A stretch of 64,000 nucleotides of DNA, from contig JANBVI010000088.1 of NCBI GenBank assembly GCA_024239075.1, positions 228,085-292,084 of the forward strand, written 5' to 3'. Below, piece by piece: positions 50,482 through 64,000 of the stretch. This DNA is from Fischerella sp. CENA71. GTDB taxonomy: Bacteria > Cyanobacteriota > Cyanobacteriia > Cyanobacteriales > Nostocaceae. Under the pieces are notes generated by a model. The model searched no databases, had not been told where the DNA came from, and worked only from the letters and a program-made list of their open reading frames with translations. Position numbers and translations under genes: made by a program. How positions within the stretch are numbered: the stretch's first letter is position 1; each line of letters opens with the position of its first letter.

Positions 50482-50645
50482 TTACTGACTATGAGGAACA
50501 AGATAGAAAGTAAATAAATCTATTGACATAATAATGCTCATCGTAAAGTAGAGAAAGAGGCGGGCATTGCTTGCCGCTTTCACTACTTTTTTGGTAACTG
50601 TGTGGAAGTGCGATCGCTATATATCAAGATACAGCGATTCAACAT

Positions 50646-51031
50646 GTGACTTAAAGGAAAAGATTGCCGTTTTTTAAAGTAAAAGCTTGCCGAACCCATA
50701 ACCTGACTAGCTTTACGGTAAAACCACGCTCTCCAAAAACGTGAAAAGTGTATTAAACCCTTACGCAGTATAGGATGAACGCCGATTTGGTCACGAACCA
50801 AAAATGGCGATCGCTCCAACGCTAGTCATCAAACTCTTATACAGAGGGCATTTTTCTCTATCTATTGTTTGGACTCACGGCAGGCTTTGACTTAAATTCT
50901 TGGGACTGGTGGTAACTTTATCGTTTAACTGTAGTCAACAACCACAGATACAAATCGTAATAATTAGGTTTTCAGGCTTTGATGCGGCAAGCTTATCCTT
51001 TAATTTTCGGCAATCTTTTTCTTTAAGTCAC
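50646..51031. repeat. 47-base inverted repeats just outside the Tn7-like left end
   Basis: GTGACTTAAAGGAAAAGATT ... AAGCTTGCCG (50646-50692) and its near-exact complement (50985-51031) bound a 292-base interior with no gene. Additional GCTTGCCG/CGGCAAG motifs lie at 51049-51066. The region may be a small non-autonomous element or a structured RNA locus. Confidence 0.75.
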
Positions 51032-51111
51032 AATCGCACGAACCATAAGCTTGCCGTCGCGGCAAAGTTATGGGTAAAGTCACAACTGTTAGATAAACTG
51101 GCAATTGAACC

Positions 51112-51322
51112 TGTACAGTGACTAATTATTTGTCGTCATGACAAATTAATGTCGTTAAAGAAATGCTTGCAATACAAAGGTTTTAGCTACTCAAGAGTTA
51201 TTACATTATTCTTTAGCCGTGACCAAATAAATGTCGTTTTCCGTAAGAATGACAAATTAACTGTCGCTTCAATAATTACAAAAAAGGTTTTGTATATTTT
51301 CATAATGACAAATTGACTGTCG
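51112..51322 (+). mobile_element. Left end of the Tn7-like (V-K CAST type) transposon with five TnsB-type sites
   Basis: The end begins TGTACAGTGAC at 51112, the terminus of known V-K elements. Five repeats of the plan RTGAC-CAAATTAA-TGTCG occur at 51118-51135, 51138-51154, 51219-51236, 51249-51266 and 51305-51322. The five bases before it, GAACC (51107-51111), would be the target duplication. Confidence 0.88.
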
Positions 51323-51389
51323 TTTTCCCTATATATAGAATAACATAATGTATTTATAAATCAATTTTGTTTCATAAGCAAAAAATCCT

Positions 51390-53129
51390 ATGTCTGATTT
51401 TACTGTTCATACCGCAGTGGATACTGCGGAAACTTTATTACAAAACAACAACTTATCTCCTGAGAAGAATGTGATTGTTACAGAACTCTCAGAGGAAGCC
51501 CAACTCAAGCTAGAGGTCATCCAAACTTTACTTGAGCCTTGCGATCGCATAACTTATGGGCAGAAACTGAAAGAGGCTGCGGAAAAACTGGGTGTGACAG
51601 TGCGAACGGTGCAGCGTTTAGTAAAAAAATGGGAAGAGGATGGCTTAGTCGCATTCACTCAGACAGGTAGGGCGGATAAAGGAAAACATCGAATTGGTGA
51701 GTTTTGGGAAAACTTCATCATTAAAACTTACAAGGAAGGTAACAAGGGTAGTAAACGCATGACTCCCAAACAAGTTGCCCTGAGAGTTCAAGCTAAAGCG
51801 CGAGAACTAGGCGACTCCAAGCCTCCTAATTACAGGACAGTTTTAAGGGTATTAGCTCCTATTTTGGAACAAAAAGAAAAAACTAAGAGTATCCGCAGCC
51901 CTGGTTGGAGAGGAACAACACTTTCCGTTAAAACTCGTGAAGGACAAGATTTATCTGTTGATTACAGCAACCATGTCTGGCAATGTGACCATACCCGTGT
52001 AGATGTTTTGCTAGTAGATCAACATGGTGAACTTATAGGTCGTCCTTGGCTAACAACTGTAATTGATACCTATTCTCGTTGCATTATGGGTATCAATTTG
52101 GGTTTTGATGCGCCTAGTTCAGTCGTAGTAGCTTTAGCATTACGCCATGCAATTTTGCCAAAAAGGTACGGTTTAGAGTACAAACTGCACTGTGAATGGG
52201 AAACTTACGGTAAGCCAGAACATTTTTATACTGATGGGGGTAAAGATTTTCGTTCAAACCACTTAAGCCAGATTGGGCCGCAATTGGGGTTTGTTTGTCA
52301 TTTACGTGATCGCCCTTCAGAAGGTGGAGTAGTTGAGCGTCCTTTTAAGACGTTGAATGACCAACTATTTTCAACGCTTCCAGGGTACACCGGATCTAAT
52401 GTACAGGAACGCCCAGAAGATGCAGAGAAAGATGCAAAACTCACCTTGCGGGAACTAGAACAACTACTTGTTCGCTACATTGTTGACCGCTATAACCAAA
52501 GTATTGATGCGCGAATGGGTGATCAAACTCGCTTTGGGCGTTGGGAAGCGGGATTGCCTTCAGTACCAGTGCCAATTGAAGAACGTGATTTAGATATCTG
52601 CTTGATGAAACAGTCACGGCGCACAGTACAAAGAGGTGGATGCTTACAGTTTCAAAATGTGATGTATCGAGGAGAATATCTAGCGGGATATGCTGGGGAA
52701 ACGGTCAATTTAAGATATGACCCCAGAGATATCACAACGGTGCTGGTTTATCGTCAAGAGAAAAGCCAAGAAGTTTTTCTGACTCGCGCTCATGCTCAAG
52801 GTTTGGAGACTGAGCAACTCTCATTAGATGAAGCTGAAGCTGCTAGTCGTAGACTGCGTAAAGCAGGTAAAACCGTCAGCAACCAAGCCTTATTACAAGA
52901 AGTAATTGAGCGTGATGCTCTGGTAGCAAACAAGAAAAGTCGCAAGGAACGCCAAAAATTGGAGCAGGAAATTTTGCGTTCTACTGCGGTTAATGAAAGT
53001 AAAAATGAATCCCTACCATCTCCAGTTATGGAAGCAGAAGAAGTGAAATCTATTACTGAGGTGCAATCTTCATCCTCAGAACTAGAGGTTTGGGACTATG
53101 AACAACTGCGTGAAGAATATGGATTTTAA
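51390..53129 (+). CDS. tnsB: Transposase TnsB
   Basis: The 579-aa DDE transposase cuts and joins the transposon ends. Residues about 40-110 are helix-turn-helix DNA-binding modules (KLKEAAEKLGVTVRTVQRLV). The RNase H core has Asp200 (WQCDHTRVD), Asp282 (FYTDGGKDF) and Glu316 (GGVVERPFKT), spacing as in the V-K TnsB family. A beta-barrel and a charged C-terminal tail (ELEVWDYEQLREEYGF) that would contact TnsC follow. The start lies 67 bases after the last TnsB-type site, so the gene is probably autoregulated. tnsC starts three bases after its stop. Confidence 0.95.
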   Translation: MSDFTVHTAVDTAETLLQNNNLSPEKNVIVTELSEEAQLKLEVIQTLLEPCDRITYGQKLKEAAEKLGVTVRTVQRLVKKWEEDGLVAFTQTGRADKGKHRIGEFWENFIIKTYKEGNKGSKRMTPKQVALRVQAKARELGDSKPPNYRTVLRVLAPILEQKEKTKSIRSPGWRGTTLSVKTREGQDLSVDYSNHVWQCDHTRVDVLLVDQHGELIGRPWLTTVIDTYSRCIMGINLGFDAPSSVVVALALRHAILPKRYGLEYKLHCEWETYGKPEHFYTDGGKDFRSNHLSQIGPQLGFVCHLRDRPSEGGVVERPFKTLNDQLFSTLPGYTGSNVQERPEDAEKDAKLTLRELEQLLVRYIVDRYNQSIDARMGDQTRFGRWEAGLPSVPVPIEERDLDICLMKQSRRTVQRGGCLQFQNVMYRGEYLAGYAGETVNLRYDPRDITTVLVYRQEKSQEVFLTRAHAQGLETEQLSLDEAEAASRRLRKAGKTVSNQALLQEVIERDALVANKKSRKERQKLEQEILRSTAVNESKNESLPSPVMEAEEVKSITEVQSSSSELEVWDYEQLREEYGF

Positions 53130-53132
53130 ACA

Positions 53133-53963
53133 ATGACAGATGCACAAGCGATCGCCCAGCAATTGGGTGGGGTGAAACCAGATGATGAGTGGTTGCAAGC
53201 TGAAATTGCTCGTCTCAAGGGTAAGAGCATTGTTCCATTACAGCAGGTAAAATCTTTGCATGATTGGTTAGATGGAAAACGTAAAGCACGGCAATCTTGC
53301 CGAGTAGTTGGAGAATCACGCACGGGGAAAACAGTTGCTTGTGATGCCTACAGATACAGGCAAAAAGTACAGGCGGAGGTGGGAAGACCACCAATTGTCC
53401 CTGTGGTTTATATTCAGCCACCCCAAAAATGCGGTGCAAAGGATTTGTTTCAAGAGATTATTGAGTATCTCAAATTCAAGGCAACTAAGGGAACAGTATC
53501 AGATTTTCGCGGCAGAACAATGGAGGTATTAAAAGGCTGTGGCGTAGAAATGATCATTGTTGATGAAGCTGATCGGCTTAAGCCTGAGACTTTTGCAGAG
53601 GTGCGTGATATTTATGACAAGTTAGGCATTGCTATTGTTTTAGTAGGAACTGACCGTTTAGAAGCAGTAATTAAGCGAGATGAACAAGTTTATAACCGCT
53701 TTCGGGCTTGTCATCGCTTCGGTAAGTTATCTGGAAAAGATTTCCAAGACACTGTACAAACTTGGGAAGATAAAGTTTTAAAGTTGCCATTGCCTTCTAA
53801 TCTCATTAGTAAGGATATGCTGCGGATTCTGACTTCGGCAACAGAAGGTTACATTGGTCGGCTAGATGAAATTCTTAGGGAAGCAGCAATCCGTTCTTTA
53901 TCAAGGGGATTAAAGAAGATTGACAAGTCTGTTTTACAGGAAGTCGCCCAGGAGTATAAGTGA
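53133..53963 (+). CDS. tnsC: Transposition regulator ATPase TnsC
   Basis: The 276-aa AAA+ ATPase polymerises on target DNA and recruits TnsB. Walker A is GESRTGKT (residues 60-67), Walker B IIVDEAD (142-147), with VLVGTDRLE as sensor region and FGKLSGKDFQDTVQTWEDK following. The length equals that of ShTnsC. It overlaps tniQ by four bases (ATGA-type) and is preceded by tnsB with a three-base gap, so one operon. Confidence 0.95.
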   Translation: MTDAQAIAQQLGGVKPDDEWLQAEIARLKGKSIVPLQQVKSLHDWLDGKRKARQSCRVVGESRTGKTVACDAYRYRQKVQAEVGRPPIVPVVYIQPPQKCGAKDLFQEIIEYLKFKATKGTVSDFRGRTMEVLKGCGVEMIIVDEADRLKPETFAEVRDIYDKLGIAIVLVGTDRLEAVIKRDEQVYNRFRACHRFGKLSGKDFQDTVQTWEDKVLKLPLPSNLISKDMLRILTSATEGYIGRLDEILREAAIRSLSRGLKKIDKSVLQEVAQEYK

Positions 53964-54463
53964 TGACAGCACCAGATGTTAAACCTTGGCTTTTTATTAT
54001 CCAGCCTTATGAAGGGGAAAGCCTGAGCCATTTTCTAGGTCGATTTAGACGTGCTAACCATTTATCTCCTAGTGGGTTGGGTAAATTGGCAGGTATTGGT
54101 GCAGTGGTAGCACGGTGGGAAAGGTTTCATTTTAATCCTCGCCCTAGCCAAAAAGAGTTAGAAGCGATCGCATCTGTGGTAGAAGTGGATGCAGACAGGT
54201 TAGCTCAAATGCTTCCACCTGCTGGAGTTGGGATGCAGCATGAGCCAATTCGCCTGTGTGGGGCTTGTTATGGCGAAAATCCCTGCCATCGAATTGAGTG
54301 GCAGTATAAGTCTGTATGGAAATGCGATCGGCATCAACTCAAAATTTTAGCGAAGTGTCCAAATTGTGAAGTACCTTTCAAAATACCTGCGCTGTGGGAG
54401 GATGGGTGCTGCCATAGATGTAGGATGCCATTTGAGGAAATGGCAAAGCTACAGAAAGGTTAA
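53960..54463 (+). CDS. tniQ: Target-complex protein TniQ, short V-K type
   Basis: The 167-aa protein bridges the target-recognition complex and TnsC. An N-terminal TniQ segment (LFIIQPYEGESLSHFLGRFR, LGKLAGIGAVVARWERFHFN) is followed by two zinc ribbons (CGACYGENPC ... CDRH; CPNC ... CCHRC). This short form, about a third to half the size of TniQ in Tn7 or I-F CASTs, is characteristic of V-K elements. A relic of a second copy of its last 40 codons lies at 58992-59092. Confidence 0.93.
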   Translation: MMTAPDVKPWLFIIQPYEGESLSHFLGRFRRANHLSPSGLGKLAGIGAVVARWERFHFNPRPSQKELEAIASVVEVDADRLAQMLPPAGVGMQHEPIRLCGACYGENPCHRIEWQYKSVWKCDRHQLKILAKCPNCEVPFKIPALWEDGCCHRCRMPFEEMAKLQKG

Positions 54464-54655
54464 TGATAACGCCAGAAAAAGGTATGAAATTAACCAAGTT
54501 TCTGAATTAATCTGGTTGTCTAAAAAATTTGTGCGATCGCAAGCAACATTGTTTGTACTGTTGATGTTGTGTGAGCGTAATTTCCATGTTTCTAAATTAG
54601 GCATGAAATGTATAATTATCTAGTTATTCGTGTATTTACTGGTTAAAACTATTAA

Positions 54656-55024
54656 ATGCTTACTCTTACACCAGAGGAAATTAGTCAGTTTCGCAGCCAG
54701 TTGGCAGATAGCCCAGAGGCTTTAGCCGCTTTGGATGCAATAGAAGAGTGTGAAGGCTATTTAGATGATGCAATTCCACTGCTAGTTATGCGGGAAACTG
54801 CACAGGAAGCAGATAGAGGATTAAACGATTGGTTAGAAAAAATCCGCCAATTTGTTTGTCAAGAGGAAGTTAGAGAAGCTTTGGAATCTGGATTCATCGC
54901 TCCAATTATAGAACCATTGGCTGCAAGTGCAGGTATTCCTTTAGGTACTGCGACTGCACTTAGTATATTGGTGTTTAAATTGGGTGCGAAAAAGTTTTGT
55001 AAAGTACCGGAATCTGATGCTTAA
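54656..55024 (+). CDS. Small helical cargo protein with hydrophobic C-terminus
   Basis: The 122-aa protein begins MLTLTPEEISQFRSQLADS. The first 85 residues are acidic and helical; residues about 92-115 are hydrophobic (ASAGIPLGTATALSILVFKL), which could insert in a membrane. The gene is convergent with the CHAT-TPR gene and overlaps it by four bases. No family is recognised. Being paired with a CHAT protease-like gene, it could be a substrate or partner; this is speculation from position. Confidence 0.65.
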   Translation: MLTLTPEEISQFRSQLADSPEALAALDAIEECEGYLDDAIPLLVMRETAQEADRGLNDWLEKIRQFVCQEEVREALESGFIAPIIEPLAASAGIPLGTATALSILVFKLGAKKFCKVPESDA

Positions 55025-58000
55025 AGCCCAGAAGCTATAAATCCAGCCCAGTAGTAAGGATTTGCAAAAGGTAAAGGTTGACGTTGCTTGATTAGTTTCA
55101 AAGATTCTTGAAATCTAATGCGTTTTCCTACTCTTAATTGAGCCAGGACGGTTTCAATTTGGGGTTTGTGTTCTTCTAAAAATTGGTCTAATCCTTCAAT
55201 AGTCAGATTTCGCAGCCAGTTTTGAGCTTGCTTCAGGGCTATGGCAATATCTCCTGCTTCTAGGTTATCAAGTTTGACTAAGTTTTCGTAGAATTTAATC
55301 ATTAAAAAGCTGGTAGAAAGGTCATCTACTTTCCAGAGGGAACTAACAACACTGGGACTACCTGCTAACAGAAAACCACTAGGTAAACCAATGTACTCGT
55401 CACTGGTATTTTGAAAATCAATCAATCCAGTTTCACAGGCGGAAAGGGTAACGAGTCGACATTTTTCTAATTTGAAACTGAAGATTTTATCTAAAGTCAA
55501 ACATTTTTCTAAATCGTGAGTTTTCCCTGCTCGTAAATTCAGGTAACGTTCGGAGTCTGTTTTTCTGGGTGTGTCTGCGATAGGTGCATCTGCCAAAATT
55601 AAGGCTGATTTACCGGGGTTGGTTAAATTAAAATACCCATGACAGCTAAAGTGGGCGCAGTGGTAAGTATTTACGTCAGAATTATTAATTGCTGTGAGTG
55701 TTGCTGCTGTTTTTTTCAGGACTTTGGCAGGATTAAAATAGCTTTGAATAATTTGTACTTCTAAATCTGTATAGTTTAAATCGCCTGTGGGGTTTTGAAT
55801 TGCAAACAGGGATTGAAAATCAGGGCGATCACGCTTTTGTACTTGTTGCAGTAATTGACAACTGGGTGCATAACTAACACCACCAGCAAATAAATCCATA
55901 AGACAAGGTGAAATTTCATAATTTTGACTTAGGGACTTCCAAATAAAAAAATAATCAATTAATGTGGTGAGCAGGGGGAGAAGAAATCTGATAGTTATAT
56001 TCGATCTAAGAATTGAGTAAATTATTTCTTGGAAGTCCATTACTGGAAGTGCATGAAGGGGAAATAAGTGTAGGAACTGATGGGGAATGAGGATAAGTTT
56101 ATCACAGCAATTTGGTATCTGGGTTAGTATTTCATCAATATGCAGAATCGAAGCTAATTCTTTGAGTTCTTCTTCTAACCTATTCTGCCACTGGTCTTTT
56201 TGATTGTAGTAGTTTCGTAAATATTGATTTATCCAATTTCTCAAATCATCTTGGTCTTTTGGTTGGGATTGCCAAATTGTTACCTCTGCTTTATGTGTGA
56301 CAATAAATGCTATAAGTTTCTCATCGAGAATATACCACTCGATAATGGCTGTATGCTCATCCAAAGCAGTATGGACTGAATCAAATTTGAAACCATAACC
56401 AACTCTTAAGTAGCGGTTTTGCAATTCATTACGTTGCTGTCGTAACTGTTGTAGATGTTGTGCTAAGACTTTTGGATTTTCAGCTTTGCCATTTTGGATT
56501 TGATATTGTCCTGTAGCTATTTCATCCCTGTATTTTTCTAGTTTAGTGGCATCTTCTGGGGAAAAGATAGTTTTAGAGTCACGTTCAAGAATCTGTTCAA
56601 CTAAATTGCGAGTTTTGCTACGTTCAACATATTCAATTGCTTCTGTTATCTTACCTAGTTCTACCTTACCTAGTTCTAGGCAAACTTCTACCATGCAGCT
56701 ATAAACTTGGTTAAAGCGTTCCGCTTGCTTGCGTTTGCTTTCTTCCCCAGACACTATTTCTGAACGCAAAGTTTCTACTGTATCAATGGCAGATTTAAAG
56801 CCATCGTAAGCTGAGGCAAGCTCGTTTTTCTTTTGGTAAGCAAATCCCAATAACAACCAACATTCTGCATGATTTTGAGGAAAACCGTCAAAAGTAAAAA
56901 CTTTCAGAGCTTCTTTGCAACAATTGATGGCCTGATCTAAATTCTCAGCCTGCTTCTCTGTGATTGTTTCAAGGTATGTAGCAGCGAGATTATTTTGCGT
57001 GAGCGCCCATTCATAGCGAAAATTTTCAAAAGTAAAAACTTTCAGAGCTTCTTTCCAACAATCGATCGCCTGCTTTAAATTCTCAGATCGATCTCCTAAT
57101 ATTATGCCACTGTAAGCAGTAGCGAGATTATTTTGCGTACCTGCCCATTGTTGGGGATAATCGTCAAAAGTAAAAACTTTTAGAGCTTCTTGATGACACT
57201 TAATCGCCTGCTCCTCTAGCCTTCTTTCTCTGTAAGCACTACCTAAATTATTTTGAGTGACTGCCCAATCTTGGCGATCATCGTCAAAAGTATAAACTTT
57301 CAGAGCATCGTTGAAACAATTGATCGCTTTCTCTAAATTCTGTGTCGGTTTTCCTAGTATTCTTTTAGTGTAAGCATTACCTAAATGATTTTGCGTAAAT
57401 GCCCACTTTCTAGGAAAATCTTCAAGGGTATAAACATTAAGAGCTTCTCTGCAACAAGCGATCGCTTGCTCTAAATTCTGTGCCTGATCCCCTATTATTC
57501 TCTTACTGTAAGCATTAGCGAGTTCATTTTGTGTATCTGCCCATTGTTGGCGATAAGCTTCAAAAGTAAAAACTTTCAGAGCTTCTTTGTAATAATCAAT
57601 CGCCAGTTCTAGATTCTGCGCTTGTTCCCCTAGTCTTTTTTCCCTGTAAGCATTACCTAACTTATATTGCATATCTGCCCATGCATAGGGAGAAGCTTCA
57701 TAAGTAAAAACTTTCAAAGCTTTTTGATAACAAGTAATCGCCTCCTCTTCTAGTTTTTTTTCCTTATAAACATTACCTAAATTATTTTGCGTAATTGCCC
57801 ATAGTTTTGGATCAACATCAAAAGTAACAACTTTTAGAACTTCTTGGCAACAATTCATGGCCAGTTCTAAATTCTGCGCCCGCTTCCCTAATTTCCTATC
57901 TAGGTAGAAAGCAGAGAGAATATTTTGCGTAACAGCCCATTGTTGGGGATCAGTGTCAGAAGTATAAACTTTTAGAGCTTCTTGAAAACAATTGATGACC

Positions 58001-58575
58001 TGTTCTATATTCTCAGAGTGCTTTCCTAATCTTCTCTCAACGTAAGCATAAGCGAGATTATTTTGGGTCATTGCCCACTCTTTGGGAGAAGCTTGCTGAG
58101 TGAAGACTGTCAACACTATTTCATAACCAGTGATGGCAATTTCCATATTACTGGCTTTGTCACCCAAGGAAAACTCACTTATACGATTACTGAAATTGAA
58201 AATAACTTTTGCTGTTTTTTGTGCAGTGTATGTTTCCACTTCCGCCAAAGCTGCACTAGCCCAACACCGCAAAACCTCTGCGAGGGTAAGATTTAGTTTT
58301 TCGGTATTTGCATCCAGCAAGCTGTCAATAGCCTCCTCGTATCTACCATGTACTGTTGCTCGCTGTGCTTTGACTAAAAATAGTAAATCTGCTGTTGCTC
58401 GCAGTACTTTGAGTAAAAATTGTAAATAAACTTTTGACTCTTCTCCTAATCCTTTTTGTTGTAATAGAGTGTAATATTTTTCTTCATTCTCCACCAGAGG
58501 AAATGGTGGTAACACTTCAACCAGCACTCTCTTTGAGGCATTCCAGAGCCATTTTCCAATTTTCCGCATAGTCAA
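55021..58575 (-). CDS. CHAT-domain, TPR-repeat protein (caspase-like)
   Basis: The 1184-aa protein has a long array of TPR units (residues about 150-640), each near WAxTQNNLGxAY then EALKVFTF. A coiled-coil region follows (EKYRDEIATGQYQIQNGK). The C-terminal CHAT domain (about 850-1184) has the catalytic pair His979 (HFSCHGYFN) and Cys1047 (LSACETGL). CHAT proteases act in eukaryote-like death pathways and in several bacterial defence systems, with the TPR array sensing a trigger. Its start overlaps the stop of a short upstream frame. It is cargo of the Tn7-like element. Confidence 0.92.
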   Translation of the reverse strand: MTMRKIGKWLWNASKRVLVEVLPPFPLVENEEKYYTLLQQKGLGEESKVYLQFLLKVLRATADLLFLVKAQRATVHGRYEEAIDSLLDANTEKLNLTLAEVLRCWASAALAEVETYTAQKTAKVIFNFSNRISEFSLGDKASNMEIAITGYEIVLTVFTQQASPKEWAMTQNNLAYAYVERRLGKHSENIEQVINCFQEALKVYTSDTDPQQWAVTQNILSAFYLDRKLGKRAQNLELAMNCCQEVLKVVTFDVDPKLWAITQNNLGNVYKEKKLEEEAITCYQKALKVFTYEASPYAWADMQYKLGNAYREKRLGEQAQNLELAIDYYKEALKVFTFEAYRQQWADTQNELANAYSKRIIGDQAQNLEQAIACCREALNVYTLEDFPRKWAFTQNHLGNAYTKRILGKPTQNLEKAINCFNDALKVYTFDDDRQDWAVTQNNLGSAYRERRLEEQAIKCHQEALKVFTFDDYPQQWAGTQNNLATAYSGIILGDRSENLKQAIDCWKEALKVFTFENFRYEWALTQNNLAATYLETITEKQAENLDQAINCCKEALKVFTFDGFPQNHAECWLLLGFAYQKKNELASAYDGFKSAIDTVETLRSEIVSGEESKRKQAERFNQVYSCMVEVCLELGKVELGKITEAIEYVERSKTRNLVEQILERDSKTIFSPEDATKLEKYRDEIATGQYQIQNGKAENPKVLAQHLQQLRQQRNELQNRYLRVGYGFKFDSVHTALDEHTAIIEWYILDEKLIAFIVTHKAEVTIWQSQPKDQDDLRNWINQYLRNYYNQKDQWQNRLEEELKELASILHIDEILTQIPNCCDKLILIPHQFLHLFPLHALPVMDFQEIIYSILRSNITIRFLLPLLTTLIDYFFIWKSLSQNYEISPCLMDLFAGGVSYAPSCQLLQQVQKRDRPDFQSLFAIQNPTGDLNYTDLEVQIIQSYFNPAKVLKKTAATLTAINNSDVNTYHCAHFSCHGYFNLTNPGKSALILADAPIADTPRKTDSERYLNLRAGKTHDLEKCLTLDKIFSFKLEKCRLVTLSACETGLIDFQNTSDEYIGLPSGFLLAGSPSVVSSLWKVDDLSTSFLMIKFYENLVKLDNLEAGDIAIALKQAQNWLRNLTIEGLDQFLEEHKPQIETVLAQLRVGKRIRFQESLKLIKQRQPLPFANPYYWAGFIASGL

Positions 58576-58742
58576 TCCTCCAACTGTATTGTCATCTTTG
58601 CCTCCGCTTCTACCATCTGCAAGAAGCCAGCATCAACTAAATTTTGGTTTGCTGCCAAAATTTCTTGGATTTTATCGTGACTACGACAATTGAAAAGGCT
58701 TTGAATGAGTTTGAAATAGTCTGGCTGACGCTGTTCGTTCAT
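58572..58742 (-). CDS. Short protein equal to the usual N-terminus of cyanobacterial CHAT proteins
   Basis: The 56-aa product (MNEQRQPDYFKLIQSLFNCR, EILAANQNLVDAGFLQMVEA) matches the segment at the very N-terminus of many cyanobacterial CHAT-TPR proteins. Here it ends LED-stop, overlapping the CHAT gene start (ATGA), so the domain is separated but translationally coupled. Either the split is natural or a deletion created it. Starts at 58766 or 58751 are also possible. Confidence 0.65.
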   Translation of the reverse strand: MNEQRQPDYFKLIQSLFNCRSHDKIQEILAANQNLVDAGFLQMVEAEAKMTIQLED

Positions 58743-58991
58743 GGGTAAGGTCATGAGACGTAGCACTTAACATCATGGAATGAATTCAACACCAACACGT
58801 TAGATTCCAGAAACGTGTAGAATTTCATCACATGTGATGCGTTCCCAATGATGAGAAGTTGCTCTACATCTACATTTAACAAAAAACTAGCTAATGAAGT
58901 TCTTAAGATTATCCCTTAATTGTTGATGAATGCGATCGCTCGCTAGCAGTTTCAGGTATAAAGAAGATGCGATCGCTATAATTTTTGTTTA

Positions 58992-59092
58992 CTCTACAAG
59001 TGTCCAAAGTGTGGGGCTAGGTTTGAAAACCCTAATCTTTAGGAAGATAGGTGTCGAAGACCATTTGCCGAAATGGCAGCGTATCAAAAGCC
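58992..59092 (+). pseudogene. Relic of a second tniQ (3' end)
   Basis: The + strand reads YKCPKCGARFENPNL, then stop in place of the conserved tryptophan, then EDRCRRPFAEMAAYQKP. This parallels the intact TniQ end AKCPNCEVPFKIPALWED ... CRMPFEEMAKLQKG. Only about 34 codons are left. At 59255-59271 GTGACATAATGGTGTCA resembles a TnsB-type site (12 of 17 positions). The rest of 58767-59314 holds no gene that I can support. Confidence 0.75.
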
Positions 59093-59314
59093 TGTTATTA
59101 ACTTGAGGAGCTTAAATGTTAATTCTTGATTATTGGCAGCGATCGCTGTATACTTAGAGTACAAATGTACTATAAAGCATAAGAAATAGTCTGCTTAAAA
59201 CTCCGGTTATTTTTGCTGCATACTTGCATACTCAATGTCAAGATAATTTTCATCGTGACATAATGGTGTCACTATATAGATAAGGAGTTTGCAGCCAGTG
59301 TTTTATGCCTGATG

Positions 59315-59515
59315 TTACTTTACAGCAGTAAGGTCTTGTTGCTCTAACGCCACATTGAAAATTAGTGTAAAACTCATGCCAGGGATGAGTCGGCGCAAAA
59401 CTTGTAAATGCGCTTCCGCATCGTTGCGGCGACGAAAACGAGCGACAATCTGGTTCTGCATATTAGGTGAAAGTCGGACTATACACCAAGGATTGAGCTT
59501 TTCAAGGTAAGTCAT
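59315..59515 (-). CDS. Small conserved cyanobacterial protein, paralogue of 11644-11880
   Basis: The 66-aa protein (MTYLEKLNPWCIVRLSPNMQ) shares its core with the 78-aa protein at 11644-11880: L-N-x-W, then QxQ(I/V)(I/V)ARFR-RxDA-xH-Q-LR. A hairpin lies 39 bases upstream, as in the paralogue. Role unknown. The gene is in the cargo region and may come with the two upstream genes on the same strand. Confidence 0.75.
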   Translation of the reverse strand: MTYLEKLNPWCIVRLSPNMQNQIVARFRRRNDAEAHLQVLRRLIPGMSFTLIFNVALEQQDLTAVK

Positions 59516-59554
59516 GAAGTTCTCCTGGTAATATCTGTAAATTCCAAGACAAAA

Positions 59555-59580
59555 GCCAGCCTACTGATACACAGGCTGGC
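59555..59580 (-). promoter_or_regulatory. Hairpin between two minus-strand cargo genes
   Basis: GCCAGCCT and AGGCTGGC form an eight-base perfect stem. Read on the minus strand it is followed by TTTTGTC, so it may terminate the upstream HTH gene or act as leader of the 66-aa gene. Confidence 0.65.
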
Positions 59581-59618
59581 AAGAAATATCATTTTGATAT
59601 TGAAATTAGATGCAGTTT

Positions 59619-59921
59619 CTACTCACTTTTATCTGGAAAACACAGTTTCTGCAACAGTTCTTGGGGAATCTCCTCAAAGTGTTCCAGCAGAAAGTTCATC
59701 AGTGCAAGGTGGCGTAAATCGGCTGGCATGGGACGGCGGTAGTTTTTACCTCTCGCAAACCAACGCCGAACAGTGGACAGGGAGCGATCGCAAATCTGCG
59801 CCATTTCTTCATAACTCACCTGCCACTTGCAGTAAAATTGCTTGGGAGTCATACCTAACTGGCAATAACTGTAGAATTGCATCAAATCTTGCTCTCGCTG
59901 TTTGAGAGGATGAGGATTCAT
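59619..59921 (-). CDS. Helix-turn-helix protein (100 aa)
   Basis: The protein from ATG 59921 (MNPHPLKQREQDLMQFYSYC) has a putative HTH at about residues 38-60 (YEEMAQICDRSLSTVRRWF) and ends with an acidic helix. This family occurs in several copies in filamentous cyanobacteria, often on plasmids or in islands. The start is only two bases after the stop of the 183-aa gene, so the two form an operon. Confidence 0.75.
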   Translation of the reverse strand: MNPHPLKQREQDLMQFYSYCQLGMTPKQFYCKWQVSYEEMAQICDRSLSTVRRWFARGKNYRRPMPADLRHLALMNFLLEHFEEIPQELLQKLCFPDKSE

Positions 59922-59923
59922 AA

Positions 59924-60475
59924 CTATGACTCCTCGCTGATTGATTCTAAATCTTCCTCCCAAGCAATATCGGCTGATATCCAAGCAGCACTGGGGCTAT
60001 CTTTGCTCAACCAAATCAGGTAGCACCAACTCCAGCAGCAGCGATCGCTTGCAAAGCTATAAAATCGACCAATGACAATACCCCAGTCAGTATCGCTTTC
60101 ATGAGAAAGCCAACGCAAGCGATCGCCATATAAAAATCTGGGTGTCTTGGCTACATCAGGAAAGTTAGCGGGAAGCTCAATAGATGTGTCTGGGTATTTG
60201 AGGTTAATCAAACCTGGAGCTATATCTTGGTGACTGTGCCGGATGAGATTGAGATAAGCGGCAATTAATTTACCATTGATGCTGTGAGTTAATCCAGAAA
60301 TCAGAATCGCAGCTAGACTTTCTATTTCTTGCGGCTGAAGTTCCACCCAAGTGCTATCAAAGTCAGCATCAGAGTAGTTGTTGAGCTTTGACAATAATTC
60401 TGTGATGCCAAAATCACCTAAAGCTTGTTGATAAGCTCTGTGTTCATCTGTTTTGTAGCTAACAGGCTTTAACAT
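59924..60475 (-). CDS. Conserved cyanobacterial island protein (183 aa)
   Basis: The protein from ATG 60475 (MLKPVSYKTDEHRAYQQALG) has a helical N-terminal half (residues 1-95, including TWVELQPQEIESLAAILISG) and a C-terminal half with RFLYGDRLRWLSHESDTDWG and a W/C-rich strand pair (CCWSWCYLIWLS). AGGAG lies eight bases before the start. No function is known. It pairs with the downstream HTH gene. Confidence 0.75.
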   Translation of the reverse strand: MLKPVSYKTDEHRAYQQALGDFGITELLSKLNNYSDADFDSTWVELQPQEIESLAAILISGLTHSINGKLIAAYLNLIRHSHQDIAPGLINLKYPDTSIELPANFPDVAKTPRFLYGDRLRWLSHESDTDWGIVIGRFYSFASDRCCWSWCYLIWLSKDSPSAAWISADIAWEEDLESISEES

Positions 60476-60503
60476 TGTATATGTCTCCTGTGATATGGGG
60501 GCC

Positions 60504-60545
60504 AAAAGCCAGCATCCGCCCTGAGAAAGTTGATGGCTGGCTTTT
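60504..60545 (-). promoter_or_regulatory. Leader hairpin before the 183-aa gene
   Basis: AAAAGCCAGC and GCTGGCTTTT form the base of a stem with GATG/CATC extension, 29 bases upstream of the start. On the minus strand it is followed by TTTT, so it looks like a terminator or attenuator in the 5' leader. Confidence 0.65.
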
Positions 60546-60647
60546 GACTTATAAGTAATTATACGCTAAAATAAAGTGTTTTTGTGTTGATTAGTGTGTT
60601 TTAATGCGTTTAACATAAAAATAATCAAAATTGCTTATGATAATGAC

Positions 60648-60818
60648 ATGGCAAAAGTAACTGTAACTATTTATATGGAAGAAGAAGATAAAGAGGCCCT
60701 GCAATTGTTAGCTGATGCAGAGGAGCGTTCTTTGTCTCAAATGGCGGTGTTAATTGTGAAACGAGCGATTAAACAAGCTCAGAATGAGGGCAAAATTCCA
60801 CCAAGTCAGGGTAAATAA
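60648..60818 (+). CDS. Ribbon-helix-helix protein (56 aa)
   Basis: The protein from ATG 60648 (MAKVTVTIYMEEEDKEALQL) has the ribbon-helix-helix plan: a TVTIY strand, then helix EEDKEALQLLADAEE and helix LSQMAVLIVKRAIKQA. Such proteins are small DNA-binding repressors (antitoxins, plasmid regulators). No toxin gene is next to it. It lies 299 bases ahead of hsdM and divergent from the 183-aa gene. Confidence 0.8.
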   Translation: MAKVTVTIYMEEEDKEALQLLADAEERSLSQMAVLIVKRAIKQAQNEGKIPPSQGK

Positions 60819-61116
60819 GGTGTAAACGCTTAGTGAGTTTGAGTTGCGATCGCCTAGTGTGTCAAGAAATAATTAACGAATAGATTTGCTGTAGAGACAG
60901 CGTTTATCGCGTCTCTCTCCAATTGTCTGATCTTTGTTGGGACGTTATTTTAGGTTAAAAAATTCCTATATAGGAATTAAACGTGCTAAGTATATTTGTT
61001 TGGGCTATGCGAAAAGATAACAGATTCCCTCGTTGCCAAAACAGTTAATATGTAAACTTATAATTTTTTAGGCGAAGTAGACAGTCATAATTTCGCCTAA
61101 GCATCGCTAACAAACT

Positions 61117-63276
61117 ATGCTCAATATCAATCAACTTGAATCTTCCCTGTGGGAAGCCGCAGACCAACTCCGCGCTAACTCAAAACTCAATGCCAATGAA
61201 TACAGTATGCCCGTACTGGGGCTAATTTTTCTTCGCCATGCGACAAATCGCTTCAATGCTGTACAAGCGGAGATTGAAAAGGGTTTACCCTCGCGGGGTG
61301 GAAAAAAACGTCCGATTACCAAAGATGACTTTAAAGGAAAGTCAGCAATTTTCTTACCAGAAGAGGCTCAGTACGATCGCATCTTGAATTTGGCAGAAAA
61401 CGCAGATATTGGCAAAGCTATCAATGCAGCGATGAAAGCGATTGAGAATGAAGCCAAGATGTTGCAGGGGGTGTTACCAAAGGAGTACACCAGTTTTGAG
61501 CCGGATTTGCTGTATAGTTTGGTGCGAATTTTTGACCGGGAGGAGTTACGGACAGCTACGGGCGATGTGTTTGGGCGAATTTATGAGTATTTTTTAAATA
61601 AGTTTGCCATGAGTGGCGCACAGGAAGGAGGAGAATTTTTTACACCGCCTTCTTTGGTACGCACAATTGTAAATATGATTGAACCTGACCGGGGAAATGT
61701 CTTAGACCCTGCTTGCGGTAGTGCGGGTATGTTTGTGCAGACGGGACATTTTGTGGAAAATCGCGGTGAGGATGCATCTGCAAAAATTACTTTTTATGGA
61801 CAGGAAAAATCCGATACTAACACCCGTTTAGCGCGGATGAATTTGGCGGTTCACGCTTTAGAAGGGATAATTCGCCAGGGTAATACTTTTTACGATCGCT
61901 GGGAAGAGTTGCTGGGTCAATGTGATTTTGTCATGTCTAACCCACCGTTTAATGTCGATGGTGTAAGTCCAGAGAAGGTGAAGACTGACCCCCGGCTGTT
62001 TACTGAGAAAAAGATACCGGGAATTGCGGCGAAAACTAAAGCAGTGAGCAATGCAAATTACCTGTGGATACAGTATTTTTACAGTTACTTAAATGAGCGA
62101 GGTAGAGCCGGGTTTGTAATGGCGAGTTCGGCATCAGATGCAGGACATGGGGAAAAGGAGATTCGGGAAGAGTTAATCGCTACCCAAGCAGTGGATATGA
62201 TTATCTCGATTGGGACGAACTTTTTTTACACAAAATCTCTACCTTGTACATTGTGGTTTTTTGACAAGGGAAAACCAGCAGAACGCCAAGATAAGGTGTT
62301 GATGATTGATGCGCGGAATGTCTACCGGGTAGTGACGCGCAAAATCCGCGATTTTAGTGAAGAACAACTCCAGAATATCACTGCGATCGCTTGGTTGTAT
62401 CGCGGTCAGCAAGAACGTTATTTAGGGTTGGTGCGGGAATATTTAAACAAGACGCATCAAGAAGCGGGGACTATTGAAGATGCGTTGACACAGTTAGAAG
62501 AACCGTTAGCTAAGTTGACACAATTATTGCAGACTTTTAGCGATAGTCTTGGAGCTTCCCTTCCTTTATTAAAAGATTTACCGGAAGTTGAGGGATTAGT
62601 TGCTGAAGATATCGCTAATCAGAATATAGAGACTTTCCGCGCTACTTTGGCTGAGTTGGAAGCGGGGATTCAAGAATTTACGGCGGCGAGAGAAGGTTTA
62701 ATTAGTGAGTTACAAGTGCATCTTGCATGGTTTGCAACTCAAGCTGAGTCACTTTCTACTAACGAAGCGCAAAAAGAATGTGCAGCAAAGTTTGTACATT
62801 TTATTCCCCAATTGAAAACCCTGCAAAAGCACATCAATGAAGTACATAAAGTCGCCAGTCGTGCTGTGGAACTGGCGGAGAAAAAGCTAGAAGCGCGGAA
62901 ACAGGATATTTGGGATGGAAAGGAAGTTAAAAAACAACGTGATGCACTGGATATAGTGCGAGATCAGGCTATTTTTGCTATTAAGTCTACGCTGTATATG
63001 AAAGCACAAGTTACCTGGTTACAATCTCGCTTTCCCGAAGCGGTGTTTGTGGATGTACCAGGGTTGTGTAAGGTGGTAACACGGGATGAAATAACCCAGC
63101 AGGATAGTAGTTTAACACCTGGGCGTTATGTGGGTGTGACGGCTTTGGATGGAGAAGATGAGGAGGATTTTGAGGAGAGAATGCGGGAAATTCATTTAGA
63201 GTTGGCGAGTTTGAATGAGGAAGCCGTGGAGTTAGCAGCGAGTATTGCGGCGAATTTTGAGGAGTTGTTAGGATGA
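61117..63276 (+). CDS. hsdM: Type I restriction-modification DNA methylase subunit
   Basis: The 719-aa N6-adenine methylase works with HsdS (specificity) and HsdR. The N-terminal helical domain (LESSLWEAADQLRANSKL) is followed by GRIYEYFLNKFAMSG, EGGEFFTPPSLVRTIV, SAM loop VLDPACGSAGMF and catalytic NPPF at Asn275. A helical C-terminal extension (residues about 450-719) makes it longer than classical HsdM (about 520 aa). It overlaps hsdS by four bases. Type I systems are frequent cargo in Tn7-like elements of cyanobacteria. Confidence 0.95.
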   Translation: MLNINQLESSLWEAADQLRANSKLNANEYSMPVLGLIFLRHATNRFNAVQAEIEKGLPSRGGKKRPITKDDFKGKSAIFLPEEAQYDRILNLAENADIGKAINAAMKAIENEAKMLQGVLPKEYTSFEPDLLYSLVRIFDREELRTATGDVFGRIYEYFLNKFAMSGAQEGGEFFTPPSLVRTIVNMIEPDRGNVLDPACGSAGMFVQTGHFVENRGEDASAKITFYGQEKSDTNTRLARMNLAVHALEGIIRQGNTFYDRWEELLGQCDFVMSNPPFNVDGVSPEKVKTDPRLFTEKKIPGIAAKTKAVSNANYLWIQYFYSYLNERGRAGFVMASSASDAGHGEKEIREELIATQAVDMIISIGTNFFYTKSLPCTLWFFDKGKPAERQDKVLMIDARNVYRVVTRKIRDFSEEQLQNITAIAWLYRGQQERYLGLVREYLNKTHQEAGTIEDALTQLEEPLAKLTQLLQTFSDSLGASLPLLKDLPEVEGLVAEDIANQNIETFRATLAELEAGIQEFTAAREGLISELQVHLAWFATQAESLSTNEAQKECAAKFVHFIPQLKTLQKHINEVHKVASRAVELAEKKLEARKQDIWDGKEVKKQRDALDIVRDQAIFAIKSTLYMKAQVTWLQSRFPEAVFVDVPGLCKVVTRDEITQQDSSLTPGRYVGVTALDGEDEEDFEERMREIHLELASLNEEAVELAASIAANFEELLG

Positions 63277-63902
63277 GTCGGTCAAAGTCAACTTTAGGTG
63301 AACTAGCTTTTTTTCAACGTGGTTTTGATATTACGATGAAACAATTAGAGGATGGAAATTATCCTGTTATATCTTCCTCTGGAGTTCAGGGCTACCATTC
63401 AGTTGCAAAAGCTAAAGGGCCTGGTGTGATTATTGGTCGTAAAGGTACGCTGGGTTCTGTGCATTATATTGAAAGCGATTTTTGGCCTCACGATACAACT
63501 TTATGGGTCAAAGATTTTAAAGGCAATAATCCTAAGTTTGTTTATTACTTTTTGAAAACATTAGAACTAGAGAGATTTGATTCTGGGGGAGCAAATCCAA
63601 CTCTTAATCGGAATCATATTCATGGTCTGGAGATTATTAAGCCTTCACCAAAAACCCAACAACGCATAGCTGATATTTTATCAACTTACGATCGCCTGAT
63701 CGACAACAACAACCGCCGAATAGCACTGCTAGAAGAATCCATCCACCTGCTTTACAAGGAATGGTTTGTACATCTGCGCTTCCCTGGGTACGAATCAGTG
63801 AAGGTAGTTGATGGTATTCCACAAGGTTGGAACTTGAAAAAGCTTGAAGAACTTGGATTACTTGGTAGAGGTAAATCTAAGAGGGTGTTTGAAAAGTTTT
63901 GA
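63273..63902 (+). pseudogene. hsdS: Type I specificity subunit, truncated by an IS5-family element
   Basis: The frame gives 209 aa, about half of a normal HsdS. The first target-recognition domain is present (LGELAFFQRGFDI, IIGRKGTLGSVHYI, PHDTTLWVKDF, NPTLNRNHIHGLEI), with the central conserved helix (RIADILSTYDRLIDNNNRRI). The second half begins with GIPQGWNLKKLEELG and breaks at GRGKSK, where the natural family sequence normally continues HRPR. The remaining residues RVFEKF come from the inserted element (from about 63881). The rest of hsdS would resume beyond the insertion. A half-size HsdS can sometimes dimerise, so residual function is possible. Confidence 0.9.
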
Positions 63903-64000
63903 TGGGTCAAAATTTATGCTAATCGCCTCAGCATGATGCGAATCATGGCAAGGTAGATAAACGTCTCTGATGTTTCGGGTAATAACTCATAGTCTCTAAC
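63881..64000 (-). mobile_element. End of an IS5-family insertion sequence
   Basis: GAGGGTGTTTGAAAAGTTTT at 63881 looks like the terminal repeat. The flanking TAA or CTAA would be the target site. The rest of the element lies outside the window. Confidence 0.75.
63914..64000 (-). CDS. IS5-family transposase, C-terminal fragment at the window edge
   Basis: The minus strand reads RDYELLPETSETFIYLAMIR then IMLRRLA-stop. This is the conserved C-terminus of IS5/IS427-group transposases from cyanobacteria. Only 28 codons are visible, and the remainder is beyond the window. It looks intact at this end. Confidence 0.85.
   Translation of the reverse strand, partial: VRDYELLPETSETFIYLAMIRIMLRRLA

Follow-up and report, generated by a model that had tools for sequence, protein, structure and literature searches.

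Nucleotides 51112-63880 of the window, the 64,000-nt stretch of Fischerella sp. CENA71 DNA analyzed here (C88:228085-292084, genome G000), are confirmed by sequence comparison as half of a type V-K CRISPR-associated transposon (CAST) closely related to ShCAST. The other half resides on contig C64 of the same genome, and was monitored in locus L010 (C64:165000-184999). The reading proposed here, to which we assign a probability of about 97%, is that of a V-K CAST of approximately 21.9 kb without the insertion sequence (IS), guided by an anchor crRNA to a tRNA-Val gene, endowed with defence-like cargo, and interrupted in hsdS by an IS5-like element. The features of the two halves are listed in Table 1.

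Table 1. Features of the two halves of the element (plain numbers, window; L010, locus on contig C64)
Feature	Position	Strand	Remarks
Target-site duplication GAACC, one copy	51107..51111	.	second copy after far end, contig C64
Transposon right end (tnsB side)	51112..51345	+	TGTACA terminus and five TnsB-type repeats
tnsB, DDE transposase, 579 aa	51390..53129	+	Pfam: Mu transposase C-terminal domain (Mu-transpos_C) and rve
tnsC, AAA ATPase, 276 aa	53133..53963	+	Pfam: TniB/AAA
tniQ, 167 aa	53960..54463	+	Pfam: TniQ
122-aa protein	54656..55024	+	no Pfam match
TPR-CHAT protein, 1184 aa	55021..58575	-	
Small ORF beside TPR-CHAT gene	58572-58766		
Cassette orf66	59315..59515	-	
Cassette orf121	59619..59984	-	weak sigma-70 region 4 / helix-turn-helix match
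Cassette orf193	59924..60505	-	no Pfam match
Cassette ribbon-helix-helix protein, 74 aa	60594..60818	+	
hsdM, type I methyltransferase	61117..63276	+	
5' part of hsdS, broken by IS	63273..63880	+	3' part on contig C64
TAA duplicated by IS	63878..63880	.	
One end of IS5-like insertion sequence	63881..64000	.	contig stops inside
tRNA-Val (anticodon GAC)	L010:9406-9479		
GGTTC, then far (left) transposon end TGTACAGTGAC	end from L010:9489		
Anchor spacer	L010:9641		points towards transposon end
cas12k	L010:10366-12285	minus	NCBIfam model 981 bits, cut-off 150
cvkR (MerR type)	L010:12313-12819	plus	
hsdR	L010:12832-16044	minus	
HATPase, STAS-like and PIN genes	L010:16238-18081	plus	
3' part of hsdS	L010:18108-18632	minus	
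Insertion sequence	from L010:18634		

Transposition genes and right end

The lengths of the tnsB, tnsC and tniQ products and the catalytic residues of TnsB given in the initial annotation are borne out by the ORFs, by Pfam and by the residues themselves, Asp200 being found in WQCDH, Asp282 in FYTDGG, and Glu316 in VVERP. The terminal sequence TGTACAGTGAC starts at 51112, immediately after GAACC, and is part of an end which includes five inward-pointing repeats of the type TGAC..AA..TGTCG. These had been noticed at the outset, and are confirmed by counting. The expression, devised after inspection of the same five repeats, has no match elsewhere in the window on either strand, and is found in a simulated stretch 0.002 times on average, and once at most (2000 order-1 Markov simulations). 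The half was correctly assigned to a V-K element, but was labeled left. In the layout outlined in passages of PMC9938897, the left end follows a tRNA gene, the CRISPR array is near the left end, and tnsB-tnsC-tniQ are next to the right end; the tnsB side is therefore named right end here.

No Pfam match to TnsA was detected among 16 element proteins scanned (orf64, orf66 and the 3' hsdS piece stand outside this set). According to passages of PMC11406308, V-K elements are devoid of TnsA and transpose replicatively.

A 48-nt inverted repeat, 85% complementary (50645-50692 and 50985-51032), is located between cysK and the element, along with more copies of the motif.

The half residing on contig C64

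Cas12k, a MerR-like CvkR gene, CRISPR repeats and a far end with inverted TnsB-type repeats terminating in TGTACA followed by GAACC had all been predicted to lie beyond the window, and all were found on C64, where cvkR adjoins cas12k and is reversed at its start. From the tRNA side, the order is transposon end, repeats, anchor spacer, altered repeat, three 37-nt repeats, tracrRNA-like region, and cas12k. The left end features four repeats matching the expression derived from the right end (0.018 expected, simulation maximum 2).

The CRISPR array is made up by three identical 37-nt repeats and an altered one. The region preceding the anchor spacer (L010:9642-9704) begins directly after the third spacer of the array, and includes bases 1-32 of the repeat, then some 21 AT-rich bases, and GGGTTGAAAG. 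The region downstream of cas12k, between the gene and the array, is conserved in all eight elements aligned, and is a candidate tracrRNA gene; the predicted tracrRNA has a counterpart on C64 as a conserved, tracrRNA-like region.

Contig break and insertion sequence in hsdS

Contig C88 ends at the window end. The initial annotation had assigned to the element the whole 51112-64000 interval. This holds true up to 63880, the last 120 bases (63881-64000) belonging to the insertion sequence which breaks hsdS. The DNA from about 63877 to the window end is found at seven further places in the genome at 98-100% identity, and in four of the seven cases the contig ends after about 120 bases of the copy. 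Copies at contig ends are typical of repeats which could not be spanned during assembly. An eighth place, on contig C14, hosts a whole copy of 913 bp, 85% identical over 121 bases compared, which looks IS5-like from the appearance of its protein pieces.

On C64, the ends of two different insertion sequences are fused at L010:18751-18757 with no gap, the second sharing 116 identical bases with the end of contig C70. Because of this fusion the C64 assembly is regarded as imperfect, and may be misjoined at this point; a real nested insertion at L010:18751 is a possible alternative. The DNA of C64 beyond L010:18751 was rejected as part of the element, as an IS5-like end fused to 116 bases identical to C70 resembles an assembly join.

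Joining the two halves

GAACC, in element orientation, borders both the C64 end and the element end at 51112, the insertion sequence is flanked by TAA on each contig, and the hsdS frame continues from the window piece into the C64 piece. In two relatives, the counterparts of the hsdS pieces, searched separately, are directly joined (GRGKS/KHRPRN in L230 of G010; ARGKS/KHRPRN in L229 of G224, with one stop further on; the slash marks the junction). The 3' piece is 75-76% identical to these counterparts, the 5' piece only 38-49%. The whole order tnsB-tnsC-tniQ-CHAT-cassette-hsdM-hsdS-PIN-STAS-HATPase-hsdR-cvkR-cas12k is found on one contig, C22, in G196. Identity is high for hsdM (95%), PIN (99%), STAS-like (99%), HATPase (91%), hsdR (98%), cvkR (91%) and cas12k (89%), whereas HsdS is only 37% and the CHAT protein about 46-48% identical. 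The G196 element further differs in lacking a match to the 122-aa protein and in having a different anchor spacer, and no tRNA is called there. Taken together, GAACC, TAA, the in-frame hsdS and the G196 order lead us to treat the C88 and C64 halves as one element, 21,911 bp long with the insertion sequence excluded; the duplications and the hsdS junction are the reason for counting cas12k in it. The halves lie on two contigs, with an insertion sequence between them that was read only in part at this place.

Two Cas12k genes (on C70 and C64) and four TnsB homologs reside in the genome, all on separate contigs, and the window half might in principle pair with the Cas12k gene found on C70, beside tRNA-Arg, and C64 with the tnsB gene of C63. 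Such an exchange of partners is very improbable. GAACC, TAA and the hsdS frame agree with C64 as the partner of the window half; moreover, the C70 sequence stops within hsdM at ...FKP and that of C63 continues at YTGVKTAV, so that C70 and C63 fit each other. Data from relatives point the same way. Among the matches listed, 12 TnsB proteins of at least 500 aa are at least 85% identical to that of the window outside this genome, and for seven of them the TnsB contig also hosts a long Cas12k match, at a distance of up to about 21 kb. Five of the seven Cas12k proteins are 82-90% identical to that encoded by C64 (90, 89, 89, 89 and 82%); the other two, 71% and 69% identical (the latter copy with a stop), are no nearer to it than the Cas12k of C70 itself (69%). 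For the remaining TnsB proteins listed, only a 55-aa Cas12k piece is found on the TnsB contig in G112, and Cas12k is on other contigs in four of the 12.

In view of the insertion sequence in hsdS and the apparent shortening of the CHAT gene, the element may have lost the ability to move. This is unlikely, as breakage is seen in the cargo only, the reading frames of tnsB, tnsC, tniQ and cas12k are open over their full length, and neither the anchor nor either of the ends is missing.

Relationships with known elements

The best matches in the PDB are the proteins of ShCAST (Tn7747, Scytonema hofmannii), the bit scores being 1128 for TnsB, 507 for TnsC, 366 for TniQ, and 1174 for Cas12k. At the level of proteins, to which this comparison refers, the four components are very similar and almost equal in length. 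The next other TnsB scores 113 bits, the TnsB of Tn7 60 bits. CvkR matches Alr3614 at 296 bits (PDB sequences).

No Cas protein was found among ten window proteins scanned, as would be expected of a non-CRISPR transposon of the Tn5053/Tn7 type merely resembling V-K elements. Such an identity is next to impossible: Cas12k, CRISPR, the tracrRNA-like region and the anchor spacer are all on the adjoining C64 half, and TnsB is far nearer to its ShCAST than to its Tn7 counterpart. A right end devoid of Cas12k and CRISPR, or a TnsB grouping with the Tn7 relatives, had been indicated at the start as arguing against a CAST; neither was encountered. The non-CRISPR class was rejected, as the element contains the CRISPR effector Cas12k.

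The V-K element also resembles AnCAST of Anabaena sp. PCC 7120, as described in passages of PMC9938897, in having a MerR-type cvkR (Alr3614) which lies at the start of cas12k in the opposite orientation, in carrying R-M genes as cargo (at a general level), and in the general V-K layout, whose left end features a tRNA, an anchor spacer and a truncated repeat. It differs in the L010:9642-9704 region, which does not consist of a short, isolated truncated repeat. The same passages report 118 such V-K systems in 88 strains. A TnsB match was found in 174/218 genomes of the family searched. TnsB copies in genomes of the same genus are distant only (best 52% identity among the matches listed). The tnsB-tnsC-tniQ stretch matched eight plasmid records (64-71% identity), in all of which less than 80% of the query was covered.

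Target site and anchor spacer

The anchor spacer AGAGCGCTACGTTGACAT matches tRNA-Val over 18 nt with no mismatches, next to a GTT PAM, with 62 bp to the transposon end. Values reported in passages of PMC9938897 for V-K elements are an anchor of about 17 nt and a GTN PAM 46-82 nt away. A search of spacers, including a delocalised one, against 51000-51111 had been suggested at the start. The delocalised spacer exists, on C64, but has no match in 50800-51111 (best, 8/17 mismatches), its target being tRNA-Val, beyond the other end. In the whole window, the best matches of the three array spacers have 13, 16 and 14 mismatches, the best match of the anchor 3/17. When the array spacers were compared to the plasmid collection, none gave a convincing match, one hitting a Rhizobium plasmid over 19 nt at chance level (E 0.9), the others nothing.

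Of four other genomes in the genus, two (G002 and G004) show an empty-site junction. The site beside tRNA-Val reads TTTGGCAATTGACCCTAAATAATGG in G004 and TTTGGCAATTGACCCTAACTAATGG in G002, versus GGCAATTGAACCTAAATGG here once the element is removed, the differences being one flank substitution and a few bases towards the tRNA. The cysK-side flank aligns (94%) in G001 and G002, within about 0.4 and 0.25 kb of the tRNA side, respectively; only 53 bases of it (81%) are in the G004 locus. G003 has a different sequence beside tRNA-Val. Repeat-like pieces, TTTGTCACCGACGACAGATGATTAGTCGCTGTATA, adjoin the same tRNA-Val in this genome (L052), and are possibly the remains of a CAST end.

In all eight V-K elements examined, two from this genome and six from relatives picked for close TnsB, a protospacer with a GTN PAM outside the left end is matched by a spacer located behind a repeat-like end. 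Over 17 nt, matches are perfect in five elements, have one mismatch in two, and two mismatches in one; matches were reported only if associated with GT and at most two mismatches. A tRNA gene overlaps the protospacer in 6/8 elements (ARAGORN). In G060 the anchor is identical, and tRNA-Val (gac) is also present.

In the proposed mechanism, a short anchor crRNA, produced beside the left end, would guide Cas12k to tRNA-Val at the GTT PAM. The signal would pass via TniQ and TnsC to TnsB, which would join the element, with its left end towards the tRNA, to the DNA 62 bp downstream of the PAM, leaving the 5-bp GAACC duplication. The remaining crRNAs are presumably meant for other targets, and cas12k is presumably under repression by CvkR. 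The parts of the element, its ends, the duplications, the empty site, the guide-target match and the IS break are read in the DNA; by analogy, RNA-guided joining, replicative transposition and repression by CvkR are inferred from published work on ShCAST and AnCAST.

Cargo genes and the small cassette

The payload listed in the initial annotation (CHAT-TPR, type I R-M, small regulators) was recovered in the window by protein family scans as CHAT-TPR, HsdM, HsdS and ribbon-helix-helix genes, and hsdR, HATPase, STAS-like and PIN genes are further cargo on the C64 half. The type I R-M and TPR-CHAT genes make the cargo defence-like. In two relatives (L218 and L220) TPR-CHAT shares a continuous reading frame with the equivalent of the small ORF found here at 58572-58766, and for this reason the window copy of the TPR-CHAT protein looks N-terminally shortened. 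L218 and L220 carry the cassette block described below together with CHAT and hsdM, and there is no listed TnsB on their contigs.

The orf66-orf121-orf193/ribbon-helix-helix cassette is kept at 81-91% in three of six V-K elements of relatives (G119, G148, G196), and was not found in the compared stretches of the other three (G060, G068, G194). Relatives of orf193 were detected in 57/212 genomes. Among the matches listed, 20 of 43 orf193 places, this genome included, are at most 25 kb from a TnsB place, a further one is 25.3 kb away, and the rest are distant or on contigs with no listed TnsB. Places were taken from the first 44 matches listed, dropping the second piece of the same G118 gene, and compared to the listed TnsB places; since the two genome samples differ slightly, the linkage is a lead and not a rate. 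That the cassette travels with V-K CASTs, and may serve the transposon, e.g. by acting as an addiction module or by controlling transposition besides CvkR, is a doubtful proposition.

Just before the cassette, at about 58947-59090 (plus strand; L212:521-664), a 52-aa stretch is 46% identical to the TniQ end. A cvkR-like remnant is found in G119 at the corresponding place. The tniQ-like remnant looks as if the cassette came with the remains of another CAST.

Other elements in the genome

One of the four TnsB homologs, a count which includes that of the window, is in two pieces. A second V-K CAST, whose TnsB is 69% like that of the window, is carried by contigs C63 (L047) and C70 (L008, L009). 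It lies beside tRNA-Arg (anticodon CCG), which its anchor spacer matches at 16/17 positions, with PAM GTG, and is seemingly also broken by an insertion sequence, in hsdM. Its 5-bp duplication was not found, AAAAA flanking the C63 end and TTAAA the C70 end, when both ends are taken as TGTACA. A third tnsB-tnsC-tniQ set, with TnsB 50% like that of the window and no Cas12k assigned, resides in L048 (G000:C38:1-16000). Its tnsB end is near a CRISPR array, followed by genes resembling type III cas genes by eye. On contig C66 (L049), a TnsB relative (58-59%) is split into two ORFs and cut short beside an apparent gene for another transposase.

Significance

The sequence data describe a real V-K CAST, nearly complete and of a kind already known, the guide found on the other half accounting for its position beside tRNA-Val. 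Half a CAST could be correctly recognized from raw sequence. The element fits published V-K biology, is ordinary for cyanobacteria, and leaves knowledge of V-K elements unchanged; what it offers is a complete natural V-K element close to ShCAST, for which the guide, the target and the full-length machinery are documented, along with an empty site from the same genus.
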